Source: an uncultured Allomuricauda sp.
Lineage (GTDB): Bacteria; Bacteroidota; Bacteroidia; Flavobacteriales; Flavobacteriaceae
Direction of reading: 5' to 3'
DNA length: 64,000 nt
Assembly (NCBI RefSeq): GCF_947501165.1
Contig: NZ_CANMUU010000001.1
Coordinates: 310,001-374,000, forward strand
How positions within the stretch are numbered: the stretch's first letter is position 1; each line of letters opens with the position of its first letter. Shown piece by piece: positions 11,101 through 24,700 of this stretch. The notes under the pieces are model-generated. The model saw only the letters and a program-made list of their open reading frames with translations, made no database searches and was not told the origin of the DNA. A program made the position numbers and the translations under genes.

Positions 11101-14100
11101 ATCCGGATTGACCTCATCAACAGTTTTGGTCAGCGAAAGGTCGACCACTGAAACTGGGTTTACAACTATATCGTCTTGATCATCCTCTGAGGACACACCA
11201 TTACTTGGTGTCGAATCAATATCGAAGCCATCTGAAGCGATAACCTGCGAGGTATTCGTATAAAGGCCAGAAGCATTGACCAATACATCAATAATCAAAG
11301 TTTCTGAAGTTCCGTTGGCCACTGTGCCTACCAGCCAAATTCCAGTTGTTTCATCATACACACCTGCTGTAGCGCTATAGAGTACAAAATCAAACCCTGA
11401 AAGCAGTTGGTCAACCACCTGAACATTGGTAGCATCGTCCGGACCACTGTTGGTAACCGTAATTTCAAAACTGATTTCTTCCCCTACGTTGGGAGTTACA
11501 TCATTATCAACCACAATTTTGGTCAATGATAGATCTGACTGCTGCGGTGCAGCAGTGATGGCATCCTCATCATCCTCACTTTGATCACCATCATCATTAT
11601 TTGGACTACTATCACTATCAAATTGGTCAGATGCAGTTACTTGAGCTATGTGAGTGAATTCGTTTGCAGCTCCGGTAGGAGTCAAAACTGTAGCATTAAA
11701 AGTGAGTGTAGTTGTGTTTGTACCAACTGGCACATTAAGATTCGTCCAAGAAATGGTGTTAGTAGCAAAGCTGAAAGTACCACCATTGCTTATACCTGTA
11801 ATACTTCCATACCCCGGAGGAACCAAATCTGCGACGGAAACTCCAGAAGCATCATCCGCACCCAAGTTGCTAAGGTTTATGCTAAATGTTACCACGTCCC
11901 CAACATCTGGATTCGGATTGCTTGCTATCAATTCCAACTCTAAATCGACAACTTGGGGGTTAATTTCAAAGAAATCTTCATCATCCTCATCTTGGTCTCC
12001 ATCATCGTTTGCCGGACTACTATTGGGGTCTAATTGATCAACCGCTGTTATCTGAGAAGTATTTCGGTATTCATTCACAGTACCTGTAGGCTCATTTACG
12101 ATAACCTGATAAGAAACTGTTGTTGAACCCGCAGCCAAGTTTGCAATATTCCAATTTATGGTATTTCCAGTAGCAATTCCTCCATTATTGATAGCTCCAA
12201 TGTTAAAACCAGAAGGGACTATATCTTGAATTGTAATATTTGTTGCTGAATCGGGACCGGTATTATTTACTGTTAACTCAAAAGTCAGAATATCCCCAAC
12301 ATTAGGAGTGGTACTTGAACCAGTGCCTAAATCTTTTGATAGACTTAGGTCTGCTGAATTTAAAGTAAGCTGAGCCGAATCTTGGTCATCTTCTGCTTCC
12401 AATCCATTGTCAACCGTAGAGTCTATGTCAAAAATATCGTTGGCTGTGATTTCAGCAGTATTGTTATAATTCCCAGTGGGATTAACGGTAGCATCAAACG
12501 TAAGGCTTAAAGTAGAGCCGTTGGTTATTGATAGATTTGACCATGTCAGAGATAAATCCCCCAAATTGAAAACACCGCCGTTGTTGACTGTTCCCGGAAC
12601 TAGAGAAAAGCCGGAGGGAATAACGTCCCTAACGGTAACCCCCGTTGCATCGGAAGCGGTAGAAGCATCATTATTAAACACATCAATGGTGAATGTTACC
12701 GTATCTCCTGGGTTTGCGGAGGTCGGTGTAACGGTTTTCGTCAACTCTAAATCTACACCCAATAGTGATACTTGTACAATATCATTATCTACTGGGCATA
12801 TTCCGTTGGAAACCTCCCATTGAAATTCATAGGTTCCTGAAGTCGCTCCGAAAACTTCGGTATTTGGGTCATTTTCATTTACAAAACCAACAGTTGTTGG
12901 ACCTGAAACTTGTGTCCAAGCTCCTATCCCGGCGGCAGGAGAAACCGCATCTAGAATCACAGAATCAAATTGGTTCAAGATTTGGTCCGGACCGGCATCT
13001 GCAGCTCCTGGGTCTTGATAGTTTATAACTTGGATTGTATCCTCTAGAGTACATCCTCCATTAACAACGGTCCACGTGAATTCATAGGTTCCTGCCTCCA
13101 AAGTATTGATAAGCGAGGTTTCACTATTCGGAGAAACAATATTGGCTGGGGTTCCGGGATTTCCTGCAACCCCCGGACCATCGGTTTGAGTCCATGTTCC
13201 TGTTCCAACAGCAATAACAGCTGCATTCATAGTTACTTGTGTAGCCGCACATAGTTCTTGGTCTGGCCCAGCATCCGCAGCAGAAGGAGGGATTGCCGTA
13301 AACGTTACTTCAACGGTGTCTAAGGTTGGGTCACAAGCAGAAGGAGCATTGGGGAAAGTCACTGCATCATATCCTACAGTCCATGTCAATTCATAGGTTC
13401 CCGGAGCGGTCACACCTGAAATTGTTGAGATGGGTGAGTTTGGGTTATCGATAGTCAAGGTTTCCCCTACCGGAGTGTTGGTAAGGGTCCAAGTTCCTAC
13501 TCCAGAAGTCGGAACGACCGCTGCCAACTGAGCTTCTAGTTGACATGCATTGGCTTGGTCTGGCCCAGCATCTGCAGTCGATGGGGTATCAAAAACCTCA
13601 ATCCTTACTACATCTGATGTAGTAGAACAGTTGCCAGAAGCAAAATTCCATTCTAAGATATATACCCCGGCAACCGATAATCCAGAAAGTGTGCTGGCTG
13701 GATCATTTGGGCTATCTATTACCGCTACACTTCCTGCAGGTTGTTCCGATATTCTCCATTCTGCCGTATCCACATCTACTGGAGGGGCATTACCTGCCAA
13801 AGTGGTTTGGTCTGCAACCACTAAATCTCCTCGACATAAAATTTGATTTAGACCAGCATCTGGAGGAACAGAGGGAGCAGTACTTGAGGTTACTGTTACT
13901 TCGTCAAAAGTATTGCCACATCCTGAAGCTCCAGGATAATTTGTTGTAAATCGAAAAACATAGGTGTTTCCTGGAGTAATGCTTACTTCCGCGACATTAC
14001 TATCCACTGGGTTTTGTGTAATTACAGCATTGGGTCCAGTAGTTGAAATTTGGGTCCATGTTCCCGTAGAGCCAAAAGTAGCCTCCAACAGAAAGTTACT

Positions 14101-17016
14101 TACCTCACAAAGGTCTAAATCCGGTCCCGCATCCGCAGGCACGAAAACGTCTACTGTTTTATCTGCAAACGTCACAGGACAGTTAATATCCCCAGCTATG
14201 GTCCATCTAAATACATAAGTACCCGAAACAAGACCTGATACAGTTGCATTGGGCGCATTTACATTGGAAAAAGTAGGAGTGTTTGGAGCTCCAGAGAGCA
14301 ACGTCCAAAAGCCTGTTTCCACATTGCTATCAAAAGGATTACCGTCCAAAGTGACTGAAGTCGCAGAGCAAATGGTTTCTGTAGGACTAGTCACTGTGGC
14401 TGTAGTTGGAGGAATTCCAACATCTAAAATAACCGTATCGGTGTCTGACGAACAAGAACCGTTGGTTGCTGTCCATTCAAAAATATATTGCCCTGAAAAC
14501 GTAAATGTAATCTGTGTGGTAGGGTTTGAAATATCATTAATTGTTACACCTCCGGGGCCTGAAATTTGAGCCCAAGAACCACTGCTACCAACAGAGGCAG
14601 AGGCATCCATGTTGAACGTATCGTTACAATCTGCTTGATCTGGGCCTGCATTGGCAACTGCATCTGGGCCCACAGTAATCTCTACGTCATCCGTTGTGGA
14701 TTGACATCCTGGAGCAATTTTCGAAATCGTCCATGTAAGAATATAACTTTGTTCCGTATTAATGGTCACATCAGTATCGAATTGATTGGGGTCATCAAAA
14801 GTGATTCCTGTAGCAGGATTTGAAGTCCATGTTCCAATTTCATCCGCAGCAGTTTGATTGGCTGCTAAAGTGACCACTCCCGTTCCTGTAGACAAACATT
14901 GGTCGGGTCCGGCATCAGCAAGTGTAGGCCCAGCTGTAGCATTTGTAGTAATTGTTACCGTGCTTGAGCCAGGGGGAGGGCATGTGTTATCACCTGGGTT
15001 CTCAATTGTCCAGCGCAAAATATAGGTTTCATTAGGGTCGTCAAATCCTGAGACTATAGTATTGGGGTCATTGACATCATCAAAAACAATAGTTGCTCCG
15101 ACGGGCGCCGTATCAACGCTCCAAGTACCTACTAAGTTAGTAGTTGGAGGACCATCGGCATTCAATACTGTTGGCGCACCAAAACATATGGTTTGGTCCA
15201 AACCTGCATTGGCTGCAATCGGGGTGTTTGAGGAAACCGCAATCTCAACCGTCGCTTCGGCAGCTGGTGCACAACTGTTACCTCCTGTCACTGCATATTG
15301 AAAAACATAGGTCCCTGGTATTAAATTTGAAATGTTGGTTGTCTGAGCAAAAGGATCTGCTACCGTAGCTTGATTTGGCCCACTTACCTGAGACCATAAA
15401 GAACTTCCAGTAGTAACAGCATTACCAGTAATATCGGTAGTGGTAATATCACAGAACAAGGTTTGATTTGTTCCTGCATTAGCAGCGGTAGGATTAAGAG
15501 ATATTGTCACGTTGATGGCATCCGTGGCCACGTCGCAACCTGTTTGAATCGTGCCGTTCAAAGCTCTTCTAAAAAGCACTGTATAGGTTCCCTCAACATC
15601 GAAATTTATATTCACTGGAGAACTGCCAGTCCCGCTAAACGTATTGGGGTCAACCAATGTAGAACCCGAAGGTCCGCTAACTATACTAAAAGTATTGGTG
15701 CCGTTACCTGTAGTTGTAAAAGGGATATCCACACTGGTTAATCCGCAGGCAGCTATTATGTCAGTTCCGCCGTTTGCCGTTATCGAAACGGGATTGGTAG
15801 AATACCTAACAACAGCGGTATCTGTGTCATCGCATCCTGTTATTGCATTTGTAATGGTATAAGAAAACCGATATGTACTGCTTCCATCCAGACCTGTTAT
15901 CTGGGTAGTACTACTGTTAGGATTCAAAATACTGGCTACCGGTCCTTCAGTTTGTATCCACTGAACCGTTTCACCAGTAAATTGTGGTTGTGATCCTATT
16001 AAAGTAGCAGTAGTTATTCCAGAATCACAAAATCTAATGTTATCTTCTTGAATGCTTGCTGTGGAAATATCCTGGGTTGCCGGATCAACATTAATGGTAA
16101 CCGTATCACTTCCATTGACACATGGCCCGGCAACTGACCATCTAAAAACATAAGATCCCTCAATAAGATTGGAGATATTGGTGTTGTTGCTATTTGCATT
16201 AGCAATAATTGGAGTACTTGGTCCGCTTACAAACGACCATGTGCCCACTTGTCCATTGATATTGTTTCCGCCAAAACTACCCGCCAGACTTGTTGATTGG
16301 GTCACCGTGTAACAATTATCTAGATTTTGAGTGGGGCCGGCATCTACGACCGCTTCTCCCCCATAATTTGTAACGGTAATGGTTGAAATCGATTCACAAA
16401 ATTCTCCGGGTGCATAATCCGGTCCTGTAATAGTCCATTGTAAAGTTGTTACACCCGCATTGGTTTCTGATAAGGTCAAAGCGGTATTGGGATCGTTTGG
16501 TGTAGCTATGGAAACTCCAGCATTGTTGGGACCTATGACGCTCCACTGGGCGGTCTCACCTGCATTGAGTGGAGTGTTGGCATTTGTGGTAAGTGTTCCT
16601 GAGCTGTCTGGACAAGATTCGATATTATCTCCCGCATCTGCCGCGGTAATCGGCTGAACTGTAATTTCTACATCTTGAAATTGTGTAGAATTGTCTGTAC
16701 ATACGGTGCTCAATCGAAAAATATACGTATTGCCTCCCACCAAACCTGAAACTGATGTATTGACATTAGAAGGATCATCAATAATTACCGAAGGGCCACC
16801 TACTTGAGACCATACAGGTCCACTTTGAACCAAACCTGCAACAGAACCTGACAGATTGAACGTGCCGATGTTTTCGCAAATTGTCTCCGGAATACCGGCA
16901 TTTACTGAACAGTTTTGGGCATATGAACTTTGGCAAAAAAGGAGGAAAAAGGAGGTGCTTAAAAGAAATGAAACACTTCCCTTTTTAAGGTTGGTCAGCA
17001 ATATGTTCATGTTCAA
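8149..17016 (-). CDS. Giant secreted adhesin (2955 aa) with PKD-like and DUF11 repeats and type B T9SS C-terminal domain
   Basis: The protein begins with a signal peptide (about 1-33, ending SSYAQ). Residues 34-1419 hold about 15 immunoglobulin/PKD-like modules of roughly 93 residues, most opening with a variant of ADAGPDQ plus a cysteine. Residues 1420-2860 hold 11 DUF11 repeats of roughly 130 residues (SLTKTV..., VTNDGPSDATNV..., LPSGFTYVS). Each DUF11 repeat ends in an acidic SxPNNxxxSEDDQD linker that may bind calcium. Residues 2861-2955 are a gliding-motility-associated C-terminal domain (NEFSPNGDGVNETF, KVYNRWGNIVFE), the type B T9SS sorting signal. PorP/SprF and OmpA genes follow immediately, as in sprB-type loci. 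It is likely a cell-surface adhesin; ligand and role in gliding are unknown. No frameshift is seen over 8.8 kb. Confidence 0.93.
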   Translation of the reverse strand: MNMNILLTNLKKGSVSFLLSTSFFLLFCQSSYAQNCSVNAGIPETICENIGTFNLSGSVAGLVQSGPVWSQVGGPSVIIDDPSNVNTSVSGLVGGNTYIFRLSTVCTDNSTQFQDVEITVQPITAADAGDNIESCPDSSGTLTTNANTPLNAGETAQWSVIGPNNAGVSIATPNDPNTALTLSETNAGVTTLQWTITGPDYAPGEFCESISTITVTNYGGEAVVDAGPTQNLDNCYTVTQSTSLAGSFGGNNINGQVGTWSFVSGPSTPIIANANSNNTNISNLIEGSYVFRWSVAGPCVNGSDTVTINVDPATQDISTASIQEDNIRFCDSGITTATLIGSQPQFTGETVQWIQTEGPVASILNPNSSTTQITGLDGSSTYRFSYTITNAITGCDDTDTAVVRYSTNPVSITANGGTDIIAACGLTSVDIPFTTTGNGTNTFSIVSGPSGSTLVDPNTFSGTGSSPVNINFDVEGTYTVLFRRALNGTIQTGCDVATDAINVTISLNPTAANAGTNQTLFCDITTTDITGNAVTTGSSLWSQVSGPNQATVADPFAQTTNISNLIPGTYVFQYAVTGGNSCAPAAEATVEIAVSSNTPIAANAGLDQTICFGAPTVLNADGPPTTNLVGTWSVDTAPVGATIVFDDVNDPNTIVSGFDDPNETYILRWTIENPGDNTCPPPGSSTVTITTNATAGPTLADAGPDQCLSTGTGVVTLAANQTAADEIGTWTSNPATGITFDDPNQFDTDVTINTEQSYILTWTISKIAPGCQSTTDDVEITVGPDAVANAGPDQADCNDTFNMDASASVGSSGSWAQISGPGGVTINDISNPTTQITFTFSGQYIFEWTATNGSCSSDTDTVILDVGIPPTTATVTSPTETICSATSVTLDGNPFDSNVETGFWTLLSGAPNTPTFSNVNAPNATVSGLVSGTYVFRWTIAGDINCPVTFADKTVDVFVPADAGPDLDLCEVSNFLLEATFGSTGTWTQISTTGPNAVITQNPVDSNVAEVSITPGNTYVFRFTTNYPGASGCGNTFDEVTVTSSTAPSVPPDAGLNQILCRGDLVVADQTTLAGNAPPVDVDTAEWRISEQPAGSVAVIDSPNDPASTLSGLSVAGVYILEWNFASGNCSTTSDVVRIEVFDTPSTADAGPDQANACQLEAQLAAVVPTSGVGTWTLTNTPVGETLTIDNPNSPISTISGVTAPGTYELTWTVGYDAVTFPNAPSACDPTLDTVEVTFTAIPPSAADAGPDQELCAATQVTMNAAVIAVGTGTWTQTDGPGVAGNPGTPANIVSPNSETSLINTLEAGTYEFTWTVVNGGCTLEDTIQVINYQDPGAADAGPDQILNQFDSVILDAVSPAAGIGAWTQVSGPTTVGFVNENDPNTEVFGATSGTYEFQWEVSNGICPVDNDIVQVSLLGVDLELTKTVTPTSANPGDTVTFTIDVFNNDASTASDATGVTVRDVIPSGFSLVPGTVNNGGVFNLGDLSLTWSNLSITNGSTLSLTFDATVNPTGNYNNTAEITANDIFDIDSTVDNGLEAEDDQDSAQLTLNSADLSLSKDLGTGSSTTPNVGDILTFELTVNNTGPDSATNITIQDIVPSGFNIGAINNGGIATGNTINWNIANLAAGSTTVSYQVIVNEPTGTVNEYRNTSQITAVDQLDPNSSPANDDGDQDEDDEDFFEINPQVVDLELELIASNPNPDVGDVVTFSINLSNLGADDASGVSVADLVPPGYGSITGISNGGTFSFATNTISWTNLNVPVGTNTTTLTFNATVLTPTGAANEFTHIAQVTASDQFDSDSSPNNDDGDQSEDDEDAITAAPQQSDLSLTKIVVDNDVTPNVGEEISFEITVTNSGPDDATNVQVVDQLLSGFDFVLYSATAGVYDETTGIWLVGTVANGTSETLIIDVLVNASGLYTNTSQVIASDGFDIDSTPSNGVSSEDDQDDIVVNPVSVVDLSLTKTVDEVNPDVSTNVVFTITVTNDGPSDATNVLVTDQLPSGFTYVSDDGAGAYINTTGVWTVGNLASGTSTLLNITATVNTTGVYTNIAEITAQDQVDSDSTPNNGILTEDDQDESTVNPVQIVDVSVTKTADDLTPNVGDPIVFTVSVTNDGPSDATNVVVTDFLASGYDFVSAVPTIGVYEPLNGSWTVGNLADGVTETIVITANVLTSGDYTNTAELTDLNETDIDSQPANNDDTEDDQQTINPFPVLVSDLVLRKSVDNLSPFVGEEVVFNISISNDGPSDVSGVEVLDLLPSGYTYVSNSRTAGVYNPVSGVWELNGGIPNGTTETLNIKALVNPTGDYFNVAEVFASDNLDPNSTPNNNVIGEDDQDIAGTTPLPSADLSLQKTVDNEFPDVLENIVFILTLTNDGPSDATGVQVSDVLPSGYTYVSDDSGGSYNSTTGEWNIGTVIGGGISILNITAQVNPTGNYLNVAELVSVIERDPDSFPGNNVLSEDDQDEQSTSPRILTDVSVSKTVNDLTPSVGNQIVFTITVNNAGPNNATNLVIEDILASGYAFVSATPSVGSYDNLTGAWALASLTNGTSETLQITATVLQSGDYANTAELIAMDTFDPDSTPDNNLVSEDDQDTVVPVPNGQADLSLTKIVNNQTPNVGDVVEFTLNLTNSGASDASGVIVTDLLAEGFTYQSAVATAGIYQPSSGLWSINGSIPNGTTETLIIFAVVNPPTGNAGEYLNVAEITSSDFADPDSNPNTSLDQDDLNDGIPDDDEDTVQVTPQTVDIALSKTVDNGTPTIGDEVTFTITLVNQGNSAATNIGVEEALPLGYQLISSQAGVGIYDESSGFWEIPQLAPSEVANLVLTVEVLDEDDYLNVVSLSFVDQFDIDEGNNRAEAFVEPSCLTVYNEFSPNGDGVNETFTIDCISRYPNNVLKVYNRWGNIVFEQRSYNNDWDGTSNGRATVQKGQQLPVGTYYYILDLGNGSAPRTDWLYINR
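8440..12759 (-). repeat. Eleven tandem DUF11-coding repeats inside the giant adhesin
   Basis: Eleven units of about 390 nt each share a leading DLSLTKTV-type strand, a GPSDATNV core, a (L/A)PSGY segment and an acidic EDDQD linker. Central copies are more alike than the outer ones. The first three and the last are the most diverged, a pattern expected if the centre expands by unequal crossing-over. Confidence 0.85.
12760..16915 (-). repeat. About fifteen tandem PKD/Ig-like module-coding repeats inside the giant adhesin
   Basis: Units of about 280 nt encode modules that start with ADAGPDQ-like motifs followed by cysteine, with the later consensus GTWTQ...GPN and TYVFRWT. Three modules lack the DAG motif (those starting QEDNIRFCDSG, NGGTDIIAACG and ATVTSPTETIC). 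Identity is much lower than in a recent duplication, so these are old modules. Confidence 0.75.
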
Positions 17017-17093
17017 AAAGATGAGGTTCCTTAAATGTAAGAATAATCTAACGTAGTAGGAAATATTAACTAATTAGAATATATGTTGTATTT

Positions 17094-17130
17094 CATCGAT
17101 CATTTGTTGTGAATGGTCGATTAATCGATG
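17094..17130. promoter_or_regulatory. Nested palindromes in the divergent promoter region
   Basis: CATCGAT (17094-17100) is the inverted copy of ATCGATG (17124-17130). The right arm also lies within a perfect 12-bp palindrome (17117-17128). A TATATTTG sequence (17133-17140), which fits the Bacteroidetes -7 element, follows at once on the plus strand. This is a candidate operator between the giant adhesin operon and the 17257 gene. The rest of 17017-17256 holds no gene that can be seen. Confidence 0.35.
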
Positions 17131-17256
17131 GGTATATTTGATAAAACTATGTGGAAGAAATAATCAACAAGAACCATCATAAACCGTATATTTCTTAAAA
17201 AAAATTCATATTATGGCACTTGAATACAGTCTTTAAGCAATATTAAATGGGTTAAA

Positions 17257-18105
17257 ATGAAAGTATTTGGCAAATCAACTATTAGAATTTCCTGGTTTGT
17301 TTTCGTCCTTGGTTTCGTAGCGAGTTATGCCCAGGACAAATCTGCGATTACCATAACTTTTCCTATAAGTTCAACGGTTTGGGAAACCAAGGAACCAGCT
17401 GAATTACAATGGAAGACCCAAAACATAGATACTTCCAAATCCATTCGTTTCTTTTTGTTACGAAATAAAACCGTGGTCCAAGAATTGGGTAGGTTCAAAA
17501 ATAGTGGTGGCGTCCAAGGAATCAAGCTTGCCAAAAATGTGGGTTCTGGTGACAATTATCAGGTAATGGCCATTGAACTGTTTCCAAACAATAAAGAACA
17601 AATCGCCAAGTATGCCAGTCCATTTTTTTCAATAAGGAATAAGGAGTCCGATTTGCGGAAAAAACAGTTTGAATTGGCCAAAAGCAACTCAACTCCTGCC
17701 AAAGCTCAAAAGAGAAACACGCGAAAGCAACCTATTTCTAATCCTCCACTTCCGAAAGAGTTTGAAGGTCGGCGAATCTCCTATGTAAAAAACCTAACCT
17801 TTGACAGTGAACGCTTAAAGGTTAAAGTATGGGACCACCAGGAAGAGGATGGTGACATTGTTTCCATATACCTTAATGGAGATCTTGTGCTATCCAAACA
17901 TCTGCTGACCAATGACCATCAAGAATTTGATATTGAGTTGAATTCAGAAAAACCAAATGACTTTTTATTATATGCCCATAACTTAGGTGAAGTATCTCCG
18001 AATACCGTTTCTGTAGAGATAACAAGTGATAAAAAATCAGAAACTATGACCTTGAATTCCTACTTAAGAAGTTGTGAGGCAGTTCTCATCAGTGTAAAAA
18101 AATAA
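17257..18105 (+). CDS. Secreted protein with Kre9/KNH-like domain, function unknown
   Basis: This 282-residue protein has a signal peptide (about 1-25, ending ASYAQ). Residues about 28-120 (ITITFPISSTVWETKE, LQWKTQNID, FFLLRNKTVVQELG) match the pattern of the Kre9/KNH N-terminal, Ser-Thr-rich GPI-type beta domain that also occurs in bacterial secreted proteins. A basic, proline-containing linker (about 135-175) leads to a C-terminal beta domain (KVKVWDHQEEDGDIVSIYLN, FLLYAHNLGEVSPNTVSVEI) of a kind common in Bacteroidetes exported proteins. It is convergent with the lipoprotein array, ending 13 nt from the last array gene. No enzymatic motif is seen. Confidence 0.6.
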   Translation: MKVFGKSTIRISWFVFVLGFVASYAQDKSAITITFPISSTVWETKEPAELQWKTQNIDTSKSIRFFLLRNKTVVQELGRFKNSGGVQGIKLAKNVGSGDNYQVMAIELFPNNKEQIAKYASPFFSIRNKESDLRKKQFELAKSNSTPAKAQKRNTRKQPISNPPLPKEFEGRRISYVKNLTFDSERLKVKVWDHQEEDGDIVSIYLNGDLVLSKHLLTNDHQEFDIELNSEKPNDFLLYAHNLGEVSPNTVSVEITSDKKSETMTLNSYLRSCEAVLISVKK

Positions 18106-18138
18106 GGCCAAAGCTCTATCAATTCCCGATATCCTCAT
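18064..18138 (-). pseudogene. Vestigial next member of the lipoprotein array (24 codons)
   Basis: The end of the last array gene still contains the junction ATG (18138) in the same 20-nt overlap geometry as the six functional junctions. The reading frame opens as MRISGIDRALAL, close to the MRILGIDK start of genes 12 and 15 of this list, and stops after 24 codons inside the convergent 17257 gene. Similarity to the other junctions runs to about 30 nt, beyond the shared stop codon, so it is not explained only by conservation of the upstream protein. It is read here as a remnant left where the array was truncated. Confidence 0.45.
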
Positions 18139-18255
18139 CAGTTATTGTATAGGTATACTCAAAATGGTTCTTACCCGTCTCTCGTACCGTCCAATACTGG
18201 TCTACATTGTAAATGTTCTTGCCCGGAGTATCTGGTTTAAAAATCTTTAGAACTT
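18119..18255 (-). repeat. Class A C-terminal direct repeat, copy in gene 7
   Basis: About 137 nt encode the shared class A tail. By eye it differs from the copy at 19553-19689 at only about six to eight positions, while the sequence immediately beyond it diverges sharply. Confidence 0.8.
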
Positions 18256-18565
18256 GGTTCGAGGTATTGGTAATGTATATAGAGTCAAATTCCTGAAATG
18301 TCAAGAATACCTTTCCAATATCAGTGACATATGTAAACCGTTGATAAGTTTCCTCATTTTCCAAGCCAACATCCAAAAATTCTGTATTATTTGATAGATT
18401 TTTTAATAGAGTGTGACTAACGAAACTAATTTTAATATTCTGACTTGACTGATTTTCAAAAACAGTCTCAATACTTTCACTGGGGTCGCAAGCCAAAAGG
18501 ACTGTGCTTATAAAACCGTAGAGAAAAGAAAAACTCAAAACTTTATCAATTCCCAATATCTTCAT
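18119..18565 (-). CDS. Array lipoprotein 7, class A (last)
   Basis: This 148-residue lipoprotein has its lipobox cysteine at Cys26 (VLLAC), followed by acidic DPSES, which may act as a surface-export signal. The N-terminal signal (MKILGIDKVLSFSFLYGF) resembles those of the class B gene at 18546-19106 and the class A gene at 19553-20017. The central part is variable. The last 40 residues (KPDTPGKNIYN, DQYWTVRETGKNH, EYTYTITDEDIGN) are nearly identical to those of the class A genes at 19553 and 20906. Its ATG lies inside the upstream gene, overlapping by 20 nt. It matches no family I recognise. Confidence 0.8.
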   Translation of the reverse strand: MKILGIDKVLSFSFLYGFISTVLLACDPSESIETVFENQSSQNIKISFVSHTLLKNLSNNTEFLDVGLENEETYQRFTYVTDIGKVFLTFQEFDSIYITNTSNQVLKIFKPDTPGKNIYNVDQYWTVRETGKNHFEYTYTITDEDIGN

Positions 18566-19106
18566 CCATTATCGTAAATACTATTTCTCCATAAACAAAT
18601 AGCCCAAAACTGGGGTTAAGAATCTCTTCAAACTTAATAATCTCCCATGAGTCGAAATTGTATGGGCTGTTAACTTCACTTCCCAAGTAATCTGCTACCC
18701 CGCTCCATTCCCTAATGAAATCATTGCCTATATAAAGCTCAAACCTAGGAACTTCAGCAACTGTATTGTATATGCTTATATTCGTTTCGATAACAGTTTG
18801 GAAATCATTCTCTTTGACCCCATCGGAAGAGTAGCGTTGCTCAAAGAAGTCTTGTTTTTTAGTATTTGGAGGTAAAACGAGGGTGTCCGCAATTATAGTA
18901 TTTCCATTATCGGACCCGTTAGTACCAAAATTATGATACACCAACTTTATTTCTTCATCTGTAGCGTTCTCAAAAACCCTTTGATAAATGTTGTCCTCGA
19001 ATGATTCTTCAAGATCACAGCTCAAAATTGAATTAATCCCGATCAACCATAGAAAACCGCAGAGAAAAGAAAAACCCAAAACTTTATCAGTTCCCAATAT
19101 CTTCAT
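18546..19106 (-). CDS. Array lipoprotein 6, class B (longest)
   Basis: At 186 residues it is the longest array member. The lipobox cysteine is Cys30 (SILSC) followed by DLEES. Its signal peptide is of the type shared with the class A gene at 19553 (MKILGTDKVL, FLCGFLWLIG), whereas its C-terminal half is class B: a REWSG segment, SPYNFDSWEI and EIVFTIMDEDIGN. It is thus a mosaic of an A-associated leader and a B-type body. A 25-residue region around IYQRVFENATDEEIKLVYHN recalls the FENxTDxKVKIHF region of class A proteins. It overlaps both neighbours by 20 nt. Confidence 0.8.
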   Translation of the reverse strand: MKILGTDKVLGFSFLCGFLWLIGINSILSCDLEESFEDNIYQRVFENATDEEIKLVYHNFGTNGSDNGNTIIADTLVLPPNTKKQDFFEQRYSSDGVKENDFQTVIETNISIYNTVAEVPRFELYIGNDFIREWSGVADYLGSEVNSPYNFDSWEIIKFEEILNPSFGLFVYGEIVFTIMDEDIGN

Positions 19107-19572
19107 CCGTTATCGTAAATACTATTTTCCCTACAATATCATTGTTAAATGGAGGTTCGAATAATTCCAGTTTCCATGAATTATAGTTAAACGGACTTTT
19201 TGAGTTCTCCTCCAAATCCCCAAACGGCGTCGTCCACTCAACCCTCAATTCTTCATCCACATAAAGCTTAACTATCGCGTTACCTGTATTTATTAAATCA
19301 TTTACATAGCTTTCAATTGGCTTTTCTCCACCGTTAAATCCTAAACCTGAACTTGATAACAAAGACATTTCTTGGTCTATTGGGATTTCAATGGAGTTTA
19401 CCACTTGAGCATCTACATTTTCAAGTTCAAGTCTTACATTACTTCCAGAGTTGTTTAAATAATTGTCCAAATAAATCTTGTCAGGAGGATTCATCTCGGT
19501 TACTCTACAACCAGTAAATAAAACAAGACTGAGGCCAATTAATAAAACTTTGTCAATTCCCAATATCCTCAT
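19087..19572 (-). CDS. Array lipoprotein 5, class B
   Basis: This 161-residue lipoprotein has the lipobox FTGC at Cys22. The leader (MRILGIDKVLLIGLSLVLF) is nearly the same as in the class B gene at 20458, and both genes directly follow a class A gene. The body contains NNSGSNVRLELEN, a VEWTTPFGD strand and SPFNYNSWKLELFEPPFNN before the class B end VGKIVFTITDEDIGN. It is probably a small beta-sandwich exposed on the outer membrane; the function is unknown. Confidence 0.8.
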   Translation of the reverse strand: MRILGIDKVLLIGLSLVLFTGCRVTEMNPPDKIYLDNYLNNSGSNVRLELENVDAQVVNSIEIPIDQEMSLLSSSGLGFNGGEKPIESYVNDLINTGNAIVKLYVDEELRVEWTTPFGDLEENSKSPFNYNSWKLELFEPPFNNDIVGKIVFTITDEDIGN

Positions 19573-19689
19573 CAGTTATTGTATAGGTATACTCAAAATG
19601 GTTCTTACCCGTCTCTCGTACCGTCCAATATTGGTCTATATTGTAAATGTTCTTGCCTGGGGTATCCGGTTTAAAAATCTTTAGAACTT
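19553..19689 (-). repeat. Class A C-terminal direct repeat, copy in gene 4
   Basis: This is the second copy of the 137-nt segment, most similar to the copy at 18119. The sharp edge of similarity inside otherwise homologous genes suggests recent gene conversion or unit duplication. Confidence 0.8.
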
Positions 19690-20017
19690 CATTCGTAGTC
19701 GTTGTAATATAAATTGAGTCGAATTCAATAAGACTATAGTTTCCAATTACTCCACCTCCAAGGTTGTCAGTTCCTATTCGATAGTAATCTACTTTCGCCA
19801 TTGATTCTAAATTCAAAACCTCAGTATTTGATGGAAAATCAGATAAGATAAGTGAACTCGTAAAGTGTATCTTTACCTTGGAGTCAGTACTATTTTCAAA
19901 TATAGCTTCCAGGCTTTCTTCTGTTTCGCAACCTAAAATTGAACTAACCCCAATCATCCAGACAAAACCACGCAAAAAAGGAAAAGTCAGAACTTTATCA
20001 GTTCCCAATATCTTCAT
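19553..20017 (-). CDS. Array lipoprotein 4, class A
   Basis: This 154-residue lipoprotein has Cys30 in SILGC followed by ETEES. The body (FENSTDSKVKIHF, EFDSIYITTTTNEVLKIF) aligns with the other class A members. The last 40 residues match gene 18119 almost exactly, also at DNA level. It starts the second A-B-B period. Its start ATG lies within the DEDIGN-coding end of the class B gene at 19998. Confidence 0.8.
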   Translation of the reverse strand: MKILGTDKVLTFPFLRGFVWMIGVSSILGCETEESLEAIFENSTDSKVKIHFTSSLILSDFPSNTEVLNLESMAKVDYYRIGTDNLGGGVIGNYSLIEFDSIYITTTTNEVLKIFKPDTPGKNIYNIDQYWTVRETGKNHFEYTYTITDEDIGN

Positions 20018-20477
20018 CGGTTAACGTAAATACGATTTTACCCACAATATCATTTTTAAATGGAGGGGGTAATGATTCAACTTTCCAAGAATCCTTATTA
20101 AAGGGGTTATTCATTTCATTTCCAAAGTTTCCAATAGGAGGTGTCCATTCACGAACCAATTGGTTTGACACAAAAAGCTCAATTTTCATATTTTCAGCAT
20201 CTTCGATAATTGAGAAATACTGATCCACCAGATTATTCTCAAATACAAAAGCATTATTCTCCATTTCCTGTTTTGCTGAAATATTTAAAGAAACCGTATT
20301 ACCGTTGCCAGATAGGGGCCAATTTGTCAAAACAATATTTATATCAGAGTCAGAGTTATTTAAAAACCTTACAACACTTTGTGTCTCCGAGGGATCTATT
20401 TCGGTAACGCCACAGCCAACTAATATTAATAGACTATAGCCAATCGGCAAAGACTTGTTAATTCTCAATATCCTCAT
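19998..20477 (-). CDS. Array lipoprotein 3, class B
   Basis: This 159-residue lipoprotein has Cys22 (LVGC) followed by GVTEIDPSE. The first residues (MRILRINKSLPIG) differ most from the other leaders, in step with the changed junction at 20458-20477. The body carries NNSDSDINIVLTN, VREWTPPIGNFG, NPFNKDSWKVE and the class B end VGKIVFTLTDEDIGN. The N-glycosylation-like or Asn-rich strand after the lipobox is shared with the class B gene at 19087. Confidence 0.8.
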   Translation of the reverse strand: MRILRINKSLPIGYSLLILVGCGVTEIDPSETQSVVRFLNNSDSDINIVLTNWPLSGNGNTVSLNISAKQEMENNAFVFENNLVDQYFSIIEDAENMKIELFVSNQLVREWTPPIGNFGNEMNNPFNKDSWKVESLPPPFKNDIVGKIVFTLTDEDIGN

Positions 20478-20925
20478 TTTCTAAGGTGAAAAAAATTCTA
20501 CCGCGCTCTAAACCACTTTGCAATAAAGTTGGTTTTTGCACTTGCCATGAATCCCTATTAAATGGACTTTTTATAGCAGTATCCACTGAAGTCCATGTCT
20601 TCATTAAGATATTGTCGATGTATAATTCGATGATGAAATCTGAACTAATTAAATCACCTATGTATTCTTGAACTGGGTCATCACCGCCTACAAAAGCGAC
20701 TTCAGAGTTCTTTAGAGCACCTTCCTCGCCTGCAGTAAGTAACAAGGAATTTACATCTTCCATATTTGAATTCTTAAGAAGTATAAATAAATCTTTGTTT
20801 GCTGAATTTTGATAAATGTCAAAATACAACTCCTTTGGAGGGTCTATTTCGGTTATGCCACAGCCAGTAAACAAAATAAGGCTAAGGCCAATTAGTAAAA
20901 TCTTATCAATTCCCAATATCCTCAT
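20458..20925 (-). CDS. Array lipoprotein 2, class B
   Basis: This 155-residue lipoprotein has Cys22 (FTGC) followed by GITEIDPPKE. The body contains QNSANKDLFILLKNSN, a TWTSVD strand and SPFNRDSWQVQ. Its end (FFTLENEDIEN) is the only diverged version of the DEDIGN tail, and the stop is TAA rather than TGA. The downstream start has changed in parallel (MRILRINK), showing both reading frames of the junction changing together. Confidence 0.8.
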   Translation of the reverse strand: MRILGIDKILLIGLSLILFTGCGITEIDPPKELYFDIYQNSANKDLFILLKNSNMEDVNSLLLTAGEEGALKNSEVAFVGGDDPVQEYIGDLISSDFIIELYIDNILMKTWTSVDTAIKSPFNRDSWQVQKPTLLQSGLERGRIFFTLENEDIEN

Positions 20926-21042
20926 CAGTTATCGTATAGGTATACTCAAAATGGTTCTTACCTGTCTCCCGTACCGTCCAGTATTGGTCTATATTGTAGA
21001 TGTTCTTACCTGGGCTATCCGGTTTGTAAATCTTCAATATTT
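20906..21042 (-). repeat. Class A C-terminal direct repeat, copy in gene 1
   Basis: This is the third copy of the segment. It is a little more diverged (roughly a dozen visible differences, mostly silent) than the other two are from each other. Confidence 0.8.
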
Positions 21043-21334
21043 CGTTGGCATTATTTGAAATGTAGATGGAATCAAAGACTGAGAGTGACAAGCCTGCCTG
21101 ACCAATAAATTCATCTACTCCGATTCTTTGATAACTCCGTCTTTCATTTGATGGAATAATTAATATTTCTCTATTCTCCATAAATTCTGTTAATAATTCA
21201 GAACTTACAAAATTCATATTCAAACTCTCATTTGAAGAATTCATGATATAGGCTTCCAAACTTTCGGTCGGGTCACATCCCCATATTGAAAGAAGTAATC
21301 CGAAAGCTAACAAAATTGATTTTTTCCATTTCAT
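20906..21334 (-). CDS. Array lipoprotein 1, class A (first)
   Basis: This 142-residue lipoprotein has Cys20 (SIWGC) followed by DPTESLE. Unlike all later members its leader (MKWKKSILLAFGLLL) does not derive from a junction sequence. It starts 4 nt after the stop of the metallopeptidase gene. The class A C-terminus (SVFDSIYISNNANEILKIYK, then the shared 40-residue tail) is present. This gene links the array to the peptidase as one transcription unit. Confidence 0.8.
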   Translation of the reverse strand: MKWKKSILLAFGLLLSIWGCDPTESLEAYIMNSSNESLNMNFVSSELLTEFMENREILIIPSNERRSYQRIGVDEFIGQAGLSLSVFDSIYISNNANEILKIYKPDSPGKNIYNIDQYWTVRETGKNHFEYTYTITDEDIGN

Positions 21335-21338
21335 ATTA

Positions 21339-23192
21339 TTAATCCCAATAATAAGCTTTAAACAAATCTCTCACATCCTTTTCATCGCGATTTCCATTTT
21401 CCTTCAGCAGTTGGTTTCTAAATTGCTGGGGAGATTCAACTCCGCGATCTAATGCATCATACAAATTTTTGTGGCGATATCCCGAAGCCTTATCAATATA
21501 ATTTGATCTAACTAAATCATTATTGTTATCAATTAAATCCAACATAATGCCTCCTGGAATCCAGCCGGTCCAACTAACTGCAGGTGTACCCTGACCCCTT
21601 ATAGAAGTGTTGCTAGGTCTGGGTATCGGGTCAAAATTCTCAAATCCGCTTTTTGAAATTATCCTATTACTATTTCCAAACTCCTCAAAAACTAAAGTAT
21701 ATCCAAAATGGTTCGCCCAAGCTTCTCCCAGTGCACAAACACCATGGTTATGACCATGTCCATCCCCATAAGGACGTCTTTCCGAGTTAAATGTACCATA
21801 AGTTATGATGTAATTGATATACTTTATCCAATAGCCACTACCCACCTTTTTAAAATGAGAAGCATGGGCCAGTTCATGAAAAGTGACAGAAAACACCCTA
21901 TCCGTTCCTTTACTCCCACCTGCCCTAATGATAAGATCCGGCTGTATAAACTTCAGCATATGGGCCAATGTATTTAACGATATACTAATCCCGTTGGCCT
22001 TGGCCAAAAAGTTCTTCACCTTAGATCTTGAGGTAAAACCATAGATACCCCAAACCCTTCGCAACATGGGTGCGGCAGATGGCCCAGTGCCGCCCAATGC
22101 CACAATCCTGAGATTGGAATGTGGTTTGCCCACGCCAAACTTTGTACAATAATTCAAATACTTTACCGTGGCATTGTTCACGGTAGCCCAGCTCCAAGCT
22201 CTATTATTGGTATAAAAATTCATATTGTGCCCTTTATTGCTACGCCGCCCTGCACGATATCTAGCGGAAGATATACTTACAATGGACCTCCATACCTTAA
22301 AGCCTCGTGTATTCTTGAACACCACCGTATAACGAACGGGCCTTCTGTATCTTCTGTTGACACTATAATATCCTTGGGAGTTTGTCCACCCTTTGGCCCA
22401 TTTAAACCATCTACGGGTCTTTATCTTTACCCCCACCACGGGATCCATACGCCCCGTCACCGTGTTCTTTACCTTCACATAGCCTTGCGGTCTCCTTTTA
22501 CGTCTTTCTGTTTGGGAGTTGTCGTATTGATCATCTTCTGGGTCCTCATAATTACCCGTCAAGCGCAGGGCCTCATCCTCAAGATCAAAGAGAAATTGCT
22601 TGGAGACCTTGGTCTTGCCTGCAACCGTAGTGGTCTCTTCTTCGTCTTCCCCATCCTCTTCCTCTATGTGTGCAGGCTCCGGTAGAAATAAGTCTTCAAT
22701 CTTCTGATACTTTACTTCGGGATGGAATTTATAATCCACAGGAACCGATGTATATACCCATTTGGATGCTACATTTACCGAATCCTCTGCAGGAAGATAA
22801 TCTCCTTCTTCCACGATTTCCACGTCCATGGGAACGCTGGATAGGTTCAAGGAGTCGGCAAGCAACAGTTTTTGTTGTTCATCGTTTTCTATCCAGAACT
22901 TTACATAAACATCGGTTGTTTGTATATCCATGGGATCCTTAAAAGTAAGTCCCTTATATTTTTTATCCATCTCTGGTGACACCTCTTGTAATTTGATAAA
23001 TGCCCTACGCATGTTAGCAACTGAATACGGATTCTCCAATTTTTTGCCCAACACTGTTTTTTTGCCTGTATCTTCAACACTGGTTTCGGGAATGTCCGCA
23101 ACCACATTGGTTGAAGGTTCTTCTTTTTGGCAGGAATGCATGAGCATAAGAGCAATACTTAAAGCAAGTAGGTTACGTTTTTTCATTTTCAA
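21339..23192 (-). CDS. Lipoprotein metallopeptidase (gluzincin-like), head gene of the lipoprotein array
   Basis: This 617-residue lipoprotein has its lipobox at Cys21 (MLMHSC) followed by QKEE, close to the acidic surface-export signal described for Bacteroidetes lipoproteins. The N-terminal half has an acidic region (about 175-190). A carboxypeptidase regulatory-like segment follows (about 225-310; VKVKNTVTGRMDPVVGVKIK, TNSQGYYSVNRRYRR) that is strikingly rich in Arg, Lys and Trp. The C-terminal half holds the zinc motif HELAH (His439, Glu440, His443) in TFHELAHASHF and, 47 residues later, GEAWANHFG with Glu490 as a likely third ligand. The overall family is not one I can name. It starts the operon; the seven small lipoproteins follow after 4 nt. 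Confidence 0.7.
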   Translation of the reverse strand: MKMKKRNLLALSIALMLMHSCQKEEPSTNVVADIPETSVEDTGKKTVLGKKLENPYSVANMRRAFIKLQEVSPEMDKKYKGLTFKDPMDIQTTDVYVKFWIENDEQQKLLLADSLNLSSVPMDVEIVEEGDYLPAEDSVNVASKWVYTSVPVDYKFHPEVKYQKIEDLFLPEPAHIEEEDGEDEEETTTVAGKTKVSKQFLFDLEDEALRLTGNYEDPEDDQYDNSQTERRKRRPQGYVKVKNTVTGRMDPVVGVKIKTRRWFKWAKGWTNSQGYYSVNRRYRRPVRYTVVFKNTRGFKVWRSIVSISSARYRAGRRSNKGHNMNFYTNNRAWSWATVNNATVKYLNYCTKFGVGKPHSNLRIVALGGTGPSAAPMLRRVWGIYGFTSRSKVKNFLAKANGISISLNTLAHMLKFIQPDLIIRAGGSKGTDRVFSVTFHELAHASHFKKVGSGYWIKYINYIITYGTFNSERRPYGDGHGHNHGVCALGEAWANHFGYTLVFEEFGNSNRIISKSGFENFDPIPRPSNTSIRGQGTPAVSWTGWIPGGIMLDLIDNNNDLVRSNYIDKASGYRHKNLYDALDRGVESPQQFRNQLLKENGNRDEKDVRDLFKAYYWD

Positions 23193-23480
23193 GTTGTTTC
23201 AGATTGGTTATGGGGTACCGTACCGACATGAAATGGAGAGTGCAACCTTTTAAGACTTTTACTTTTTTGAGGTAAGACTAAAAGTCTGCGTTACACTTAT
23301 GCGCTCCGAAAAACTGAATCCAGAGCTATTAACAAAAGTTTTCTCCTATTTAAAATGTAGGACAATACGCATCAGTCAAACTTAGCCGAGTATTTAATAA
23401 ATTAAGGGACTGGATTTATGAATGGCCCAATTGGATTGATGAATGCGTGGTTTGAGTCAGTGGATACCCTAAATCCAATA
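23193..23480. other. Intergenic region upstream of the metallopeptidase-lipoprotein operon, no gene seen
   Basis: No open frame with coding character is visible. On the minus strand GGTTGCACTCT (23234-23244) resembles the -35 side of the ECF-type elements at 1762-1768, but no GTC box lies at the 16-nt spacing, so it is not called a promoter. TAAGTTTG (23384-23377, minus) fits a -7 element without a clear -33 partner. Confidence 0.4.
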
Positions 23481-23511
23481 AAAAAAGCCTGAACTTAAGT
23501 TCAGGCTTTTT
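23481..23511 (-). terminator. Rho-independent terminator after tRNA-Leu
   Basis: A perfect 22-bp palindrome at 23486-23507 (arms AGCCTGAACTT and AAGTTCAGGCT) is flanked by A-runs and T-runs on the two sides. It can therefore act in either direction. It lies directly 3' of the tRNA on the minus strand. Confidence 0.85.
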
Positions 23512-23512
23512 G

Positions 23513-23594
23513 TACCTTGGGTGGGAATCGAACCCACACTCCCGAAAGAACTGGATTTTGAATCCAGCGCGTCTACCAATTCCGCCACCAAGGC
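23513..23594 (-). tRNA. tRNA-Leu (anticodon CAA)
   Basis: The 82-nt minus-strand sequence folds as a class II tRNA. The acceptor stem GCCTTGG pairs with CCAAGGT. The D-arm follows, then an anticodon stem CTGGA/TCCAG enclosing the loop TTCAAAA (anticodon CAA), a variable arm (TTCTTTCGGGAGT region) and a T-arm with GGTTCGATTCC. CCA is not encoded. Class II structure and anticodon both indicate leucine, reading UUG codons. Confidence 0.95.
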
Positions 23595-23699
23595 TTAAAA
23601 AAAGGCTCCCGTTAAAATTGGGACTGCAAAGCTAAAAAATACTTTGTATTCGCAAAACTAAAATTTCACATTTATCCTTTAGCAAGCCGAATAAATTTT

Positions 23700-23707
23700 T
23701 AAATTTG
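23700..23707 (+). promoter_or_regulatory. Probable prs promoter -7 element
   Basis: TAAATTTG fits the Bacteroidetes primary sigma -7 consensus TAnnTTTG and lies 51 nt before the prs ATG, divergent from the tRNA gene. The -33 box is not convincing. Confidence 0.45.
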
Positions 23708-23758
23708 CACCTCTTTAAAAAAAGATAGTTTTAAAAAACTAGACAACAATAGTTTATA

Positions 23759-24700
23759 ATGGCGTATCAAGTTCCAGAACCCAAAATTTTTGCCTGCACC
23801 CAAAGTACGGTTTTGGCTGAAAAAATAGCAAAGTCCTATGGTGCTGATTTGGGTAACATACGCTTTTCCCGATATAGCGATGGGGAATTCCAACCGTCTT
23901 TTGAAGAATCCATTCGAGGTGCTAGGATTTTCATTATTGGCTCCACTAACCCAGGTCCGCAGAATCTGATGGAAATGTTGTTGATGTTAGATGCGGCCAA
24001 AAGAGCTTCGGCAAGGCATATTACCGCCGTAATGCCCTATTTTGGATGGGCTCGACAAGACCGAAAGGACAAACCTCGGGTACCAATTGCTGCAAAACTT
24101 GTGGCCAAAATGTTAGAGACCGCAGGGGCAACCCGTATCATAACCATGGATTTGCATGCAGACCAAATTCAAGGATTCTTTGAAAAACCAGTAGACCATT
24201 TGTTTGCTTCTACTTTGTTTTTACCCTACCTAAAGGAATTGAATCTTGATAACCTCTGCATTGCGTCACCAGATATGGGAGGTTCCAAAAGGGCCTATGC
24301 ATATTCAAGAGCTTTGGAAAGTGATGTGGTTATTTGTTACAAGCAGCGCGCCAAAGCCAATGTAATCTCTCACATGGAACTGATTGGTGATGTGACCAAT
24401 AAAAATGTGGTTTTAGTAGATGATTTAGTGGATACGGCAGGCACTTTAACCAAGGCTGCAGACTTAATGATGGAAAGAGGAGCGAAAAGTGTCAGAGCAA
24501 TCACAACCCATGGTTTGTTATCTGGCGACGCTTTTGAAAAAATAGAAAACTCGCAATTAACAGAACTTATTGTAACAGACTCTATCCCTGTTGGAACATC
24601 ACATAACAAAGTAAAGGTGTTGAGCTGTGCTGATTTGTTTGCGGATGTAATGCATCGTGTACACCATAACACGTCAATTTCGTCCAAATTTTTAATGTAA
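23759..24700 (+). CDS. prs: Ribose-phosphate pyrophosphokinase
   Basis: This 313-residue cytosolic enzyme makes PRPP from ribose 5-phosphate and ATP for nucleotide, histidine and tryptophan synthesis. Visible motifs are RYSDGEFQPSFEESIRG, YFGWARQDRKDKPRVPI (ATP-binding flexible loop), DLHADQIQGFF, the catalytic loop KQRAKANV and the PRPP-binding DDLVDTAGTL (from Asp221). Length is standard for the family. It is followed 17 nt downstream by rplY, with no terminator between, so they are probably co-transcribed. Confidence 0.97.
   Translation: MAYQVPEPKIFACTQSTVLAEKIAKSYGADLGNIRFSRYSDGEFQPSFEESIRGARIFIIGSTNPGPQNLMEMLLMLDAAKRASARHITAVMPYFGWARQDRKDKPRVPIAAKLVAKMLETAGATRIITMDLHADQIQGFFEKPVDHLFASTLFLPYLKELNLDNLCIASPDMGGSKRAYAYSRALESDVVICYKQRAKANVISHMELIGDVTNKNVVLVDDLVDTAGTLTKAADLMMERGAKSVRAITTHGLLSGDAFEKIENSQLTELIVTDSIPVGTSHNKVKVLSCADLFADVMHRVHHNTSISSKFLM

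Follow-up and report, generated by a model that had tools for sequence, protein, structure and literature searches.

A predicted surface zinc protease and an array of lipoprotein genes joined by 20-nt dual-coded overlaps in Allomuricauda: a possible effector/immunity system

The lipoprotein array and its joints

The locus considered in this study lies in a stretch of 64,000 nucleotides (nt), hereafter the window, from an uncultured Allomuricauda sp. (assembly GCF_947501165.1, contig NZ_CANMUU010000001.1, positions 310,001 to 374,000). It consists of seven consecutive small lipoprotein genes on the minus strand, at 18119-21334, preceded on the same strand by a gene for a predicted surface zinc protease. 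I will refer to the lipoprotein genes in order of transcription as W1 through W7. As called from open reading frames (ORFs), each has 142-186 codons (proteins of 142, 155, 159, 154, 161, 186 and 148 amino acids (aa), respectively), and all six junctions are stop/start overlaps of exactly 20 nt. The features are collected in Table 1.

Table 1. Features of the array and of the protease gene upstream of it. Percentages refer to DNA identity. Units labeled F belong to F. meridianipacifica and those labeled N to Flagellimonas sp. 389.
Feature	Position	Strand	Basis
W1, A-type lipoprotein adjoining protease, presumed cognate partner	20906..21334	-	
W2, B-type lipoprotein; 92% identical to F2	20458..20925	-	
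W3, B-type lipoprotein; 90% identical to F3	19998..20477	-	
W4, A-type lipoprotein; signal-peptide block also present in F4 and N3	19553..20017	-	
W5, B-type lipoprotein; 83% identical to N2	19087..19572	-	
W6, long B-type lipoprotein; 92% identical to F4, 93% to N1	18546..19106	-	
W7, A-type lipoprotein, final unit	18119..18565	-	
20-nt joint W1-W2	20906..20925	-	
20-nt joint W2-W3 (degenerate)	20458..20477	-	
20-nt joint W3-W4	19998..20017	-	
20-nt joint W4-W5	19553..19572	-	
20-nt joint W5-W6	19087..19106	-	
20-nt joint W6-W7	18546..18565	-	
Joint-like 3' end of W7, no next gene on strand	18119..18138	-	
617-aa lipoprotein, predicted thermolysin-like zinc protease, surface-export signal CQKEEP	21339..23192	-	ORF, motifs, AlphaFold2 and Foldseek
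HELAHASH zinc-binding motif, residues 439-446	21855..21878	-	Numbering from alignment
Swapped protease tail, residues about 494-617, just past third zinc ligand E490	21339..21713	-	Identity break, covariation with first lipoprotein

Each joint is read in two frames. The upstream frame, GAT GAR GAT ATT GGG AAY TGA, encodes a C-terminal DEDIGN and the stop, and the downstream frame, ATG ARG ATA TTG GGA AYT GA, encodes the start of the next signal peptide. The joint pattern GATGARGATATYGRGAAYTGA, with up to two mismatches allowed, matches the organism's own 3.73-Mb genome seven times (six matches with no mismatch and one with two), at the 3' ends of W1 through W7 and nowhere else, and the reversed pattern, used as a control, has no match in that genome. 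The seven genes and six dual-frame overlaps described in a first-pass annotation of this DNA are therefore confirmed. That description is to be amended in two points. The junction of W2 and W3 is degenerate (NEDIEN / MRILRINK), and W1 begins outside any overlap, 4 nt past the stop codon of the protease gene and with a start of its own (MKWKK). W7 retains the 3' end ATGAGGATATCGGGAATTGA though no gene on the same strand comes after it.

The geometry of the joint can be understood from its codons. Within the codons for D-E-D, GAT GAR GAT, lies an ATG that continues as ARG AT; the next gene accordingly begins with M-K/R-I, a suitable start for a signal peptide. Because these codons hold the ATG, homologous recombination there stays in frame, and the overlap can remain constant without a special recombinase. 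A dedicated recombinase acting at the joints was considered, but the data do not need one, since the exchanged blocks (described below) are homologous and long. Nor are the six equal overlaps, real as they are, six independent coincidences, since paralogous cassettes with ends in common make up the array.

What maintains the 20-nt sequence seems to be, for the most part, the protein motif at the C-terminus. There are 16 departures from the consensus in 12 joints (the joints are related, and these are not independent events), of which 11 are silent in the upstream frame and 2 in the downstream frame. Many members of the family end in an acidic motif (for example TDEDI, TEEDL or TDEDF) even where no gene overlaps, so that the motif appears to belong to the protein itself and not to follow from the joints. 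In Mangrovivirga halotolerans (L107), two of three lipoprotein junctions are 17-nt joints with this geometry (EDFE/MRILNR and EDFK/MKILNK), which suggests that such a solution was reached more than once.

No terminator-like site was found within the array, the sole one lying at 21743-21758, inside the protease gene. Promoter-like sites occur at the level expected by chance (17 found, 17.6 expected), and a scan of 17000-24000 against Rfam gave only the tRNA.

The lipoproteins of the array are of two types, A and B (Table 1), and a third, type C, lies behind proteases with LFNNWKD tails. On profile comparison (probability 97.6 for A vs B and 98.2 for A vs C), the three types are one lipoprotein superfamily. 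Neither the seven lipoproteins, the protease of the window nor several relatives matched Pfam or NCBIfam at cut-off, and PADLOC, applied to four of the seven lipoproteins, the protease and two relatives, gave a single weak match (protease, E 0.043). The structural model of an A-type protein has a predicted local distance difference test score (pLDDT) of 77.9, and the search of PDB with it was uninformative (best E 0.16, nothing below E 0.1). The A-type profile matched no sequence of a solved structure below E 0.92, and the protease profile none below E 0.45.

The protease and its exchanged tail

The motifs HExxHxxH and GExWA are invariant in 36 relatives of the protease, and H439, E440, H443, H446, E490 and W492 make up six of the seven invariant columns in that set. 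The AlphaFold2 model (pLDDT 79.7, predicted template modeling score (pTM) 0.81) has as its top match by Foldseek the neutral protease of Bacillus cereus (1npc; E 5.3e-5; TM-score 0.57 by target length), which is also the sole match at E <= 0.001. Given the motifs and this best fold match, the 617-aa lipoprotein is predicted to be a thermolysin-like zincin. A surface-export signal of Bacteroidota lipoproteins is described in PMC5080379 as C-X-K-(D/E)2-X following the lipid cysteine, and the sequence CQKEEP of the protease fits it. Within the family, C-x(0-2)-K-[DE][DE] is found in 14 of 30 proteases and K/R-[DE] alone in 22 of 30, and the signal occurs in none of 33 first lipoproteins and in none of 25 listed unit genes. 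The survey left aside L017, L020, L064, L066, L074 and L075, whose protease ORFs are duplicates or truncated, and L077-L079, where the neighboring gene is not a lipoprotein of the family. The protease gene is interrupted or split in G033, G004, F. olearia and A. sediminis (L064, L020, L066 and L075), with the adjoining lipoprotein genes open; either real decay or assembly error may be responsible.

When the DNA of the protease gene is compared with that of F. meridianipacifica in 60-nt segments, identity is mostly 0.77-1.00 up to residue about 485 (one segment 0.68) and 0.49-0.70 beyond it. The break between species thus falls at about residue 485-490, near the third zinc ligand, and by this comparison the core of the protease is conserved and the tail past that ligand is swapped between species. 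The variable tail comprises the last 80-139 aa in the 42 tails listed.

The first lipoprotein changes with the tail. The partial Mantel correlation of lipoprotein with tail, given core, is 0.659 in 41 loci, 0.674 in 38 and 0.874 in the 15 of this genus, values reached by none of 5000 permutations in any of the three sets. The correlation of lipoprotein with core, given tail, is 0.155 (reached by 14 of 5000 permutations), 0.169 (4 of 5000) and 0.158 (334 of 5000) in the same sets. Of 63 sources, 42 were retained, and the set of 41 was obtained after removal of L017, a duplicate of L064; the set of 38 further lacks three loci without a family lipoprotein. Individual genomes illustrate the correlation. 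The protease of Flagellimonas sp. 389 is close to that of the window in its core (distance 0.14), yet carries a DWP tail and has a B-type partner. In F. olearia, the partial core is marginally nearest the DWP group (0.40 vs 0.44), and tail and partner are nearest those of F. meridianipacifica.

Some relatives retain spare tails. Belliella kenyensis and B. calami have five lipoprotein genes each, with 323-387 nt between one gene and the next, and every one of the eight spacers contains a displaced copy of the 3' end of a protease gene (78-89% identical in DNA to a protease of the pair). A wider search gave downstream matches to tails in 10 of 63 loci, of which L183, L184 and L191 belong to this genus; the 63 include at least two duplicate pairs (L117/L187 and L085/L198) and one match in L094 may be a second complete protease. 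L185 and L186 have a tail and a lipoprotein and no full protease within the 9-10 kb examined. Displaced tips beside partner genes are read by Zhang et al. (PMC3482391) as remnants of tip replacement, and the arrangement in these relatives is of the kind so described there.

Sixty loci that carry names are from Bacteroidota, including Flagellimonas/Allomuricauda, Belliella, Paenimyroides, Fulvivirga, Mangrovivirga and Sphingobacterium. Among 71 genomes of the genus, that of the window included, 29 have a protease match (E <= 1e-10), 9 have an A-type lipoprotein and 9 a B-type. Solitary A-type lipoproteins (CDPVSDMEA-like) are present in four genomes of the genus (L057:8731-9132, L058:7266-7697, L059:823-1221 and L060:7564-7962). 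In two of the genomes with solitary genes (G005 and G075) the protease has no match at E <= 1e-10, and G002 and G003 have one elsewhere, for which reason the idea that solitary A-type genes occur only where there is no protease was dropped. A. nanhaiensis (L117:11857-13671) and a relative (L188:3245-5076) have arrays of four lipoprotein genes without 20-nt joints, and in the former units 1 and 4 look nearly identical at both ends.

Units of the array in related genomes

Joints of the same kind, which the first-pass annotation proposed to seek in related genomes, are present in F. meridianipacifica and Flagellimonas sp. 389, whose units are called F1-F5 and N1-N3 here (one genome per species). 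Against the seven units of the window there are five in the first, with four 20-nt joints, and three in the second, with two, and in neither were the same seven genes found in the same order. The best DNA matches are those of Table 1, together with F4/N1 (92%), F5/N3 (95% over the body) and W1 with F5 and N3 (83% over the aligned part). The unit of W6 type is preceded by W5 in the window, by F3 in F. meridianipacifica and by the protease gene in Flagellimonas sp. 389, where N1 is the first unit, beside the DWP-tailed protease; it is followed by W7, F5 and N2, respectively.

Two units are chimeric, with the switch at the boundary between signal peptide and mature protein: F4 has a signal peptide nearer that of W4 and a body of W6 type, and N3 combines a signal peptide of F4 type with a body of F5 type. 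The F3-F4 and N2-N3 joints have about 140 nt of nearly identical sequence in common, flanked by bodies that differ. The block exchanged is a homologous one of up to about 140 nt centered on the joint, comprising a gene's 3' end together with the code for the next signal peptide. The proposal that the genes are cassettes with their ends as recombination site is largely right, to judge from the differences in unit number and order and the chimeras around joints, in that units behave as exchangeable cassettes (gained, lost, moved and recombined), but the site is this longer block and not the 20 nt alone.

Divergence was expressed as synonymous substitutions per synonymous site (dS), calculated by the method of Nei and Gojobori, which is crude where sites are saturated. 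For the bodies of units, dS is 0.17 for W2/F2, 0.27 for W3/F3, 0.14 for W6/F4, 0.18 for W6/N1, 0.18 for F4/N1 and 0.11 for F5/N3, compared with 0.53-0.78 for the protease core and from 1.07 to saturation for the flanking genes. Since six of nine unit pairs are closer than the protease core, and eight of the nine are closer than any flanking gene in the comparison, exchange between species is the simplest reading.

The surroundings are partly shared. All three loci have a large surface protein downstream, and a gene resembling phosphoribosyl pyrophosphate synthetase lies upstream in the window and in Flagellimonas sp. 389. The large protein of the window (8149-17016, minus strand) is repetitive and 2955 aa long, and a relative of it flanks each of the other two arrays; its C-terminus presumably resembles type IX secretion signals. 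Convergent with the array is a gene for a 282-aa protein (17257-18105, plus strand) with a weak match to Kre9_KNH (E 0.0037, below cut-off). A relative of this gene, 85% identical, is beside the array of F. meridianipacifica, and no match was found in the stretch of Flagellimonas sp. 389 examined. Upstream of the F. meridianipacifica protease is an ORF (L016:2323-3537, minus strand) that looks like a tyrosine recombinase gene, so a mobile element may be close to the locus in that genome.

Interpretation and related systems

The first-pass annotation overlooked the context of the array. The protease gene ahead of it, the swapped tail and the spare tails in relatives point to effector/immunity modules, and I consider it fairly probable that the locus is a protease/immunity system resembling polymorphic toxins, with an array of orphan immunity genes. 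The surface zinc protease and the small lipoprotein downstream would be a swappable effector/immunity-like pair. Recombination would swap the tail jointly with the adjacent lipoprotein, and displaced lipoproteins would stay downstream as orphan immunity genes, the array in the lineage of the window comprising lipoprotein cassettes only. Each cassette ends in a conserved C-terminal [D/N]EDI whose DNA (gATGARGAT) supplies the next start codon and the first residues of the signal peptide, and homologous recombination in the block of joint and signal peptide can thereby insert, delete or exchange units with translation unbroken. The first lipoprotein may restrain the resident tail, by analogy with potempins and KLIKK proteases as described in PMC7296668, while the protease would act on other bacteria and the six remaining lipoproteins would protect against the tails or variants of rival neighbors. 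The differences between species in unit number and order, the chimeric units, the covariation of tail and lipoprotein and the spare tails in relatives are observed directly.

Several considerations weigh against this interpretation. The bodies of W5/N2, W1/F5 and W1/N3 have dS values (0.94, 0.93 and 1.12, respectively) that are not below that of the protease core. The protease gene is interrupted in some relatives, 53 of 63 loci have no spare tail, and the locus of the window itself contains none. Some of the covariation comes from linkage alone, because tail and first lipoprotein are neighbors, and that analysis excluded 21 of 63 sources, four of which (L096, L101, L111 and L113) have an adjoining candidate small ORF that escaped the lipobox filter. 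Since the HExxH core does not vary, what is swapped would be a lobe and not an entire toxin domain. Lastly, the activity, toxicity, inhibition and localization of the protease and lipoproteins are predictions from sequence.

Other explanations account for part of the same evidence. The protease might serve nutrition, with no rival bacteria involved and the array an amplified family of potempin-like inhibitors that protect the cell from its own enzyme. Small lipoproteins that inhibit a co-expressed protease are reported for the KLIKK proteases of Tannerella forsythia (PMC7296668), and a surface signal on the protease but not on the lipoproteins would suit such an arrangement. One protease facing seven divergent partners, the spare tails in relatives and the solitary A-type genes of G005 and G075 fit it less well, and although some of these could also suit inhibitors of the cell's own changing tails, I regard the explanation as somewhat unlikely. 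The covariation of tail and lipoprotein would suit any specific partner, so the lipoproteins could instead be chaperones or activators specific to tails, but six partners for tails that are absent, besides the solitary copies just mentioned, are hard to explain in that way, and the idea seems improbable.

Two further explanations concern the array by itself. Variable middles between conserved ends, and recombination between units, are what one would expect of a store of variable surface lipoproteins used in antigenic variation. That is quite improbable, however, in view of the absence of the export signal from the first lipoproteins and unit genes surveyed, and of the organization of the units as a single same-strand run behind the protease with no internal terminator-like site, rather than an expression site with silent copies. 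Ordinary tandem duplication of one lipoprotein gene would make equal overlaps automatic once a unit with such ends was duplicated, and the dependence of the joint mainly on the C-terminal motif agrees with overlaps that are passive; but units that do not exchange would hardly give rise to permuted order, chimeras and low dS between species for most units, and I find this very hard to credit.

The protease/immunity system proposed here may be compared with known ones. Staphylococcal lpl clusters are tandem lipoprotein paralogs and are not known to have an adjacent polymorphic protease or such joints. A search of open-access papers found none on a system of this protease with a lipoprotein array. 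The polymorphic toxins (CDI/Rhs type) of Zhang et al. 2012 (PMC3482391), as presented there, have a constant N-terminus and a variable C-terminal tip that is swapped along with its partner. The likeness extends to the constant N-terminal part, the variable C-terminal part, the adjacent downstream partner that changes with it, the downstream strings of partner genes and the stand-alone tip cassettes (found in relatives, not at the locus of the window). Here, however, the effector is a lipid-anchored zinc protease with its active-site motif in the constant part, the joints are dual-coded overlaps, and the partners are lipoproteins; that paper names Imm65 as the sole lipoprotein among the immunity proteins of its collection. 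The homogeneous polyimmunity loci described in the same work are also same-strand tandem paralogs, closely spaced, that differ in number between related genomes, and no toxin cassettes interrupt the array of the window. Unlike them, this array stands directly behind an effector gene and has constant 20-nt overlaps and units chimeric at joints.

Potempins and the KLIKK proteases of T. forsythia likewise pair a Bacteroidota protease gene with a small lipoprotein gene, but in the description of PMC7296668 potempin genes precede the protease, one per protease, while here the lipoprotein genes come after it and form arrays. SitA/SitI of Myxococcus xanthus (PMC5562445) similarly pairs a lipoprotein effector that is polymorphic with a cognate immunity gene downstream of it; according to that account, the cytoplasm is where SitA tips act, and they are passed on by TraA-dependent outer-membrane exchange, whereas a zincin with lipoprotein partners is found here. 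The FP0506 elastase of Flavobacterium psychrophilum, also from the Flavobacteriaceae, is by its description (PMC6414381) a predicted surface-exposed gluzincin lipoprotein; it is 296 aa long, against 617 aa for the protease of the window.

Whether the Bacteroidota possess a weapon/immunity system with a zinc protease as surface lipoprotein, an exchangeable lobe by the active site and lipoprotein immunity arrays with self-restoring joints is, in my estimation, evenly balanced. The joint would be self-restoring in that homologous exchange gives a new immunity protein that is translatable and exported, since the DNA for the conserved motif at the C-terminus of each immunity protein also encodes the start codon of the following one and the n-region of its signal peptide. 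The novelty would lie in the combination: a lipid-anchored zincin whose lobe is swapped, partners that are lipoproteins, and frame-keeping joints. If true, this would add to the means by which Bacteroidota compete a protein pair that has no match at curated cut-off in Pfam or NCBIfam. The array would offer a picture, at the level of sequence, of how an immunity array may grow and reshuffle without losing its reading frame, and one protease with seven partners at a single locus would lead to testable predictions of cross-protection.

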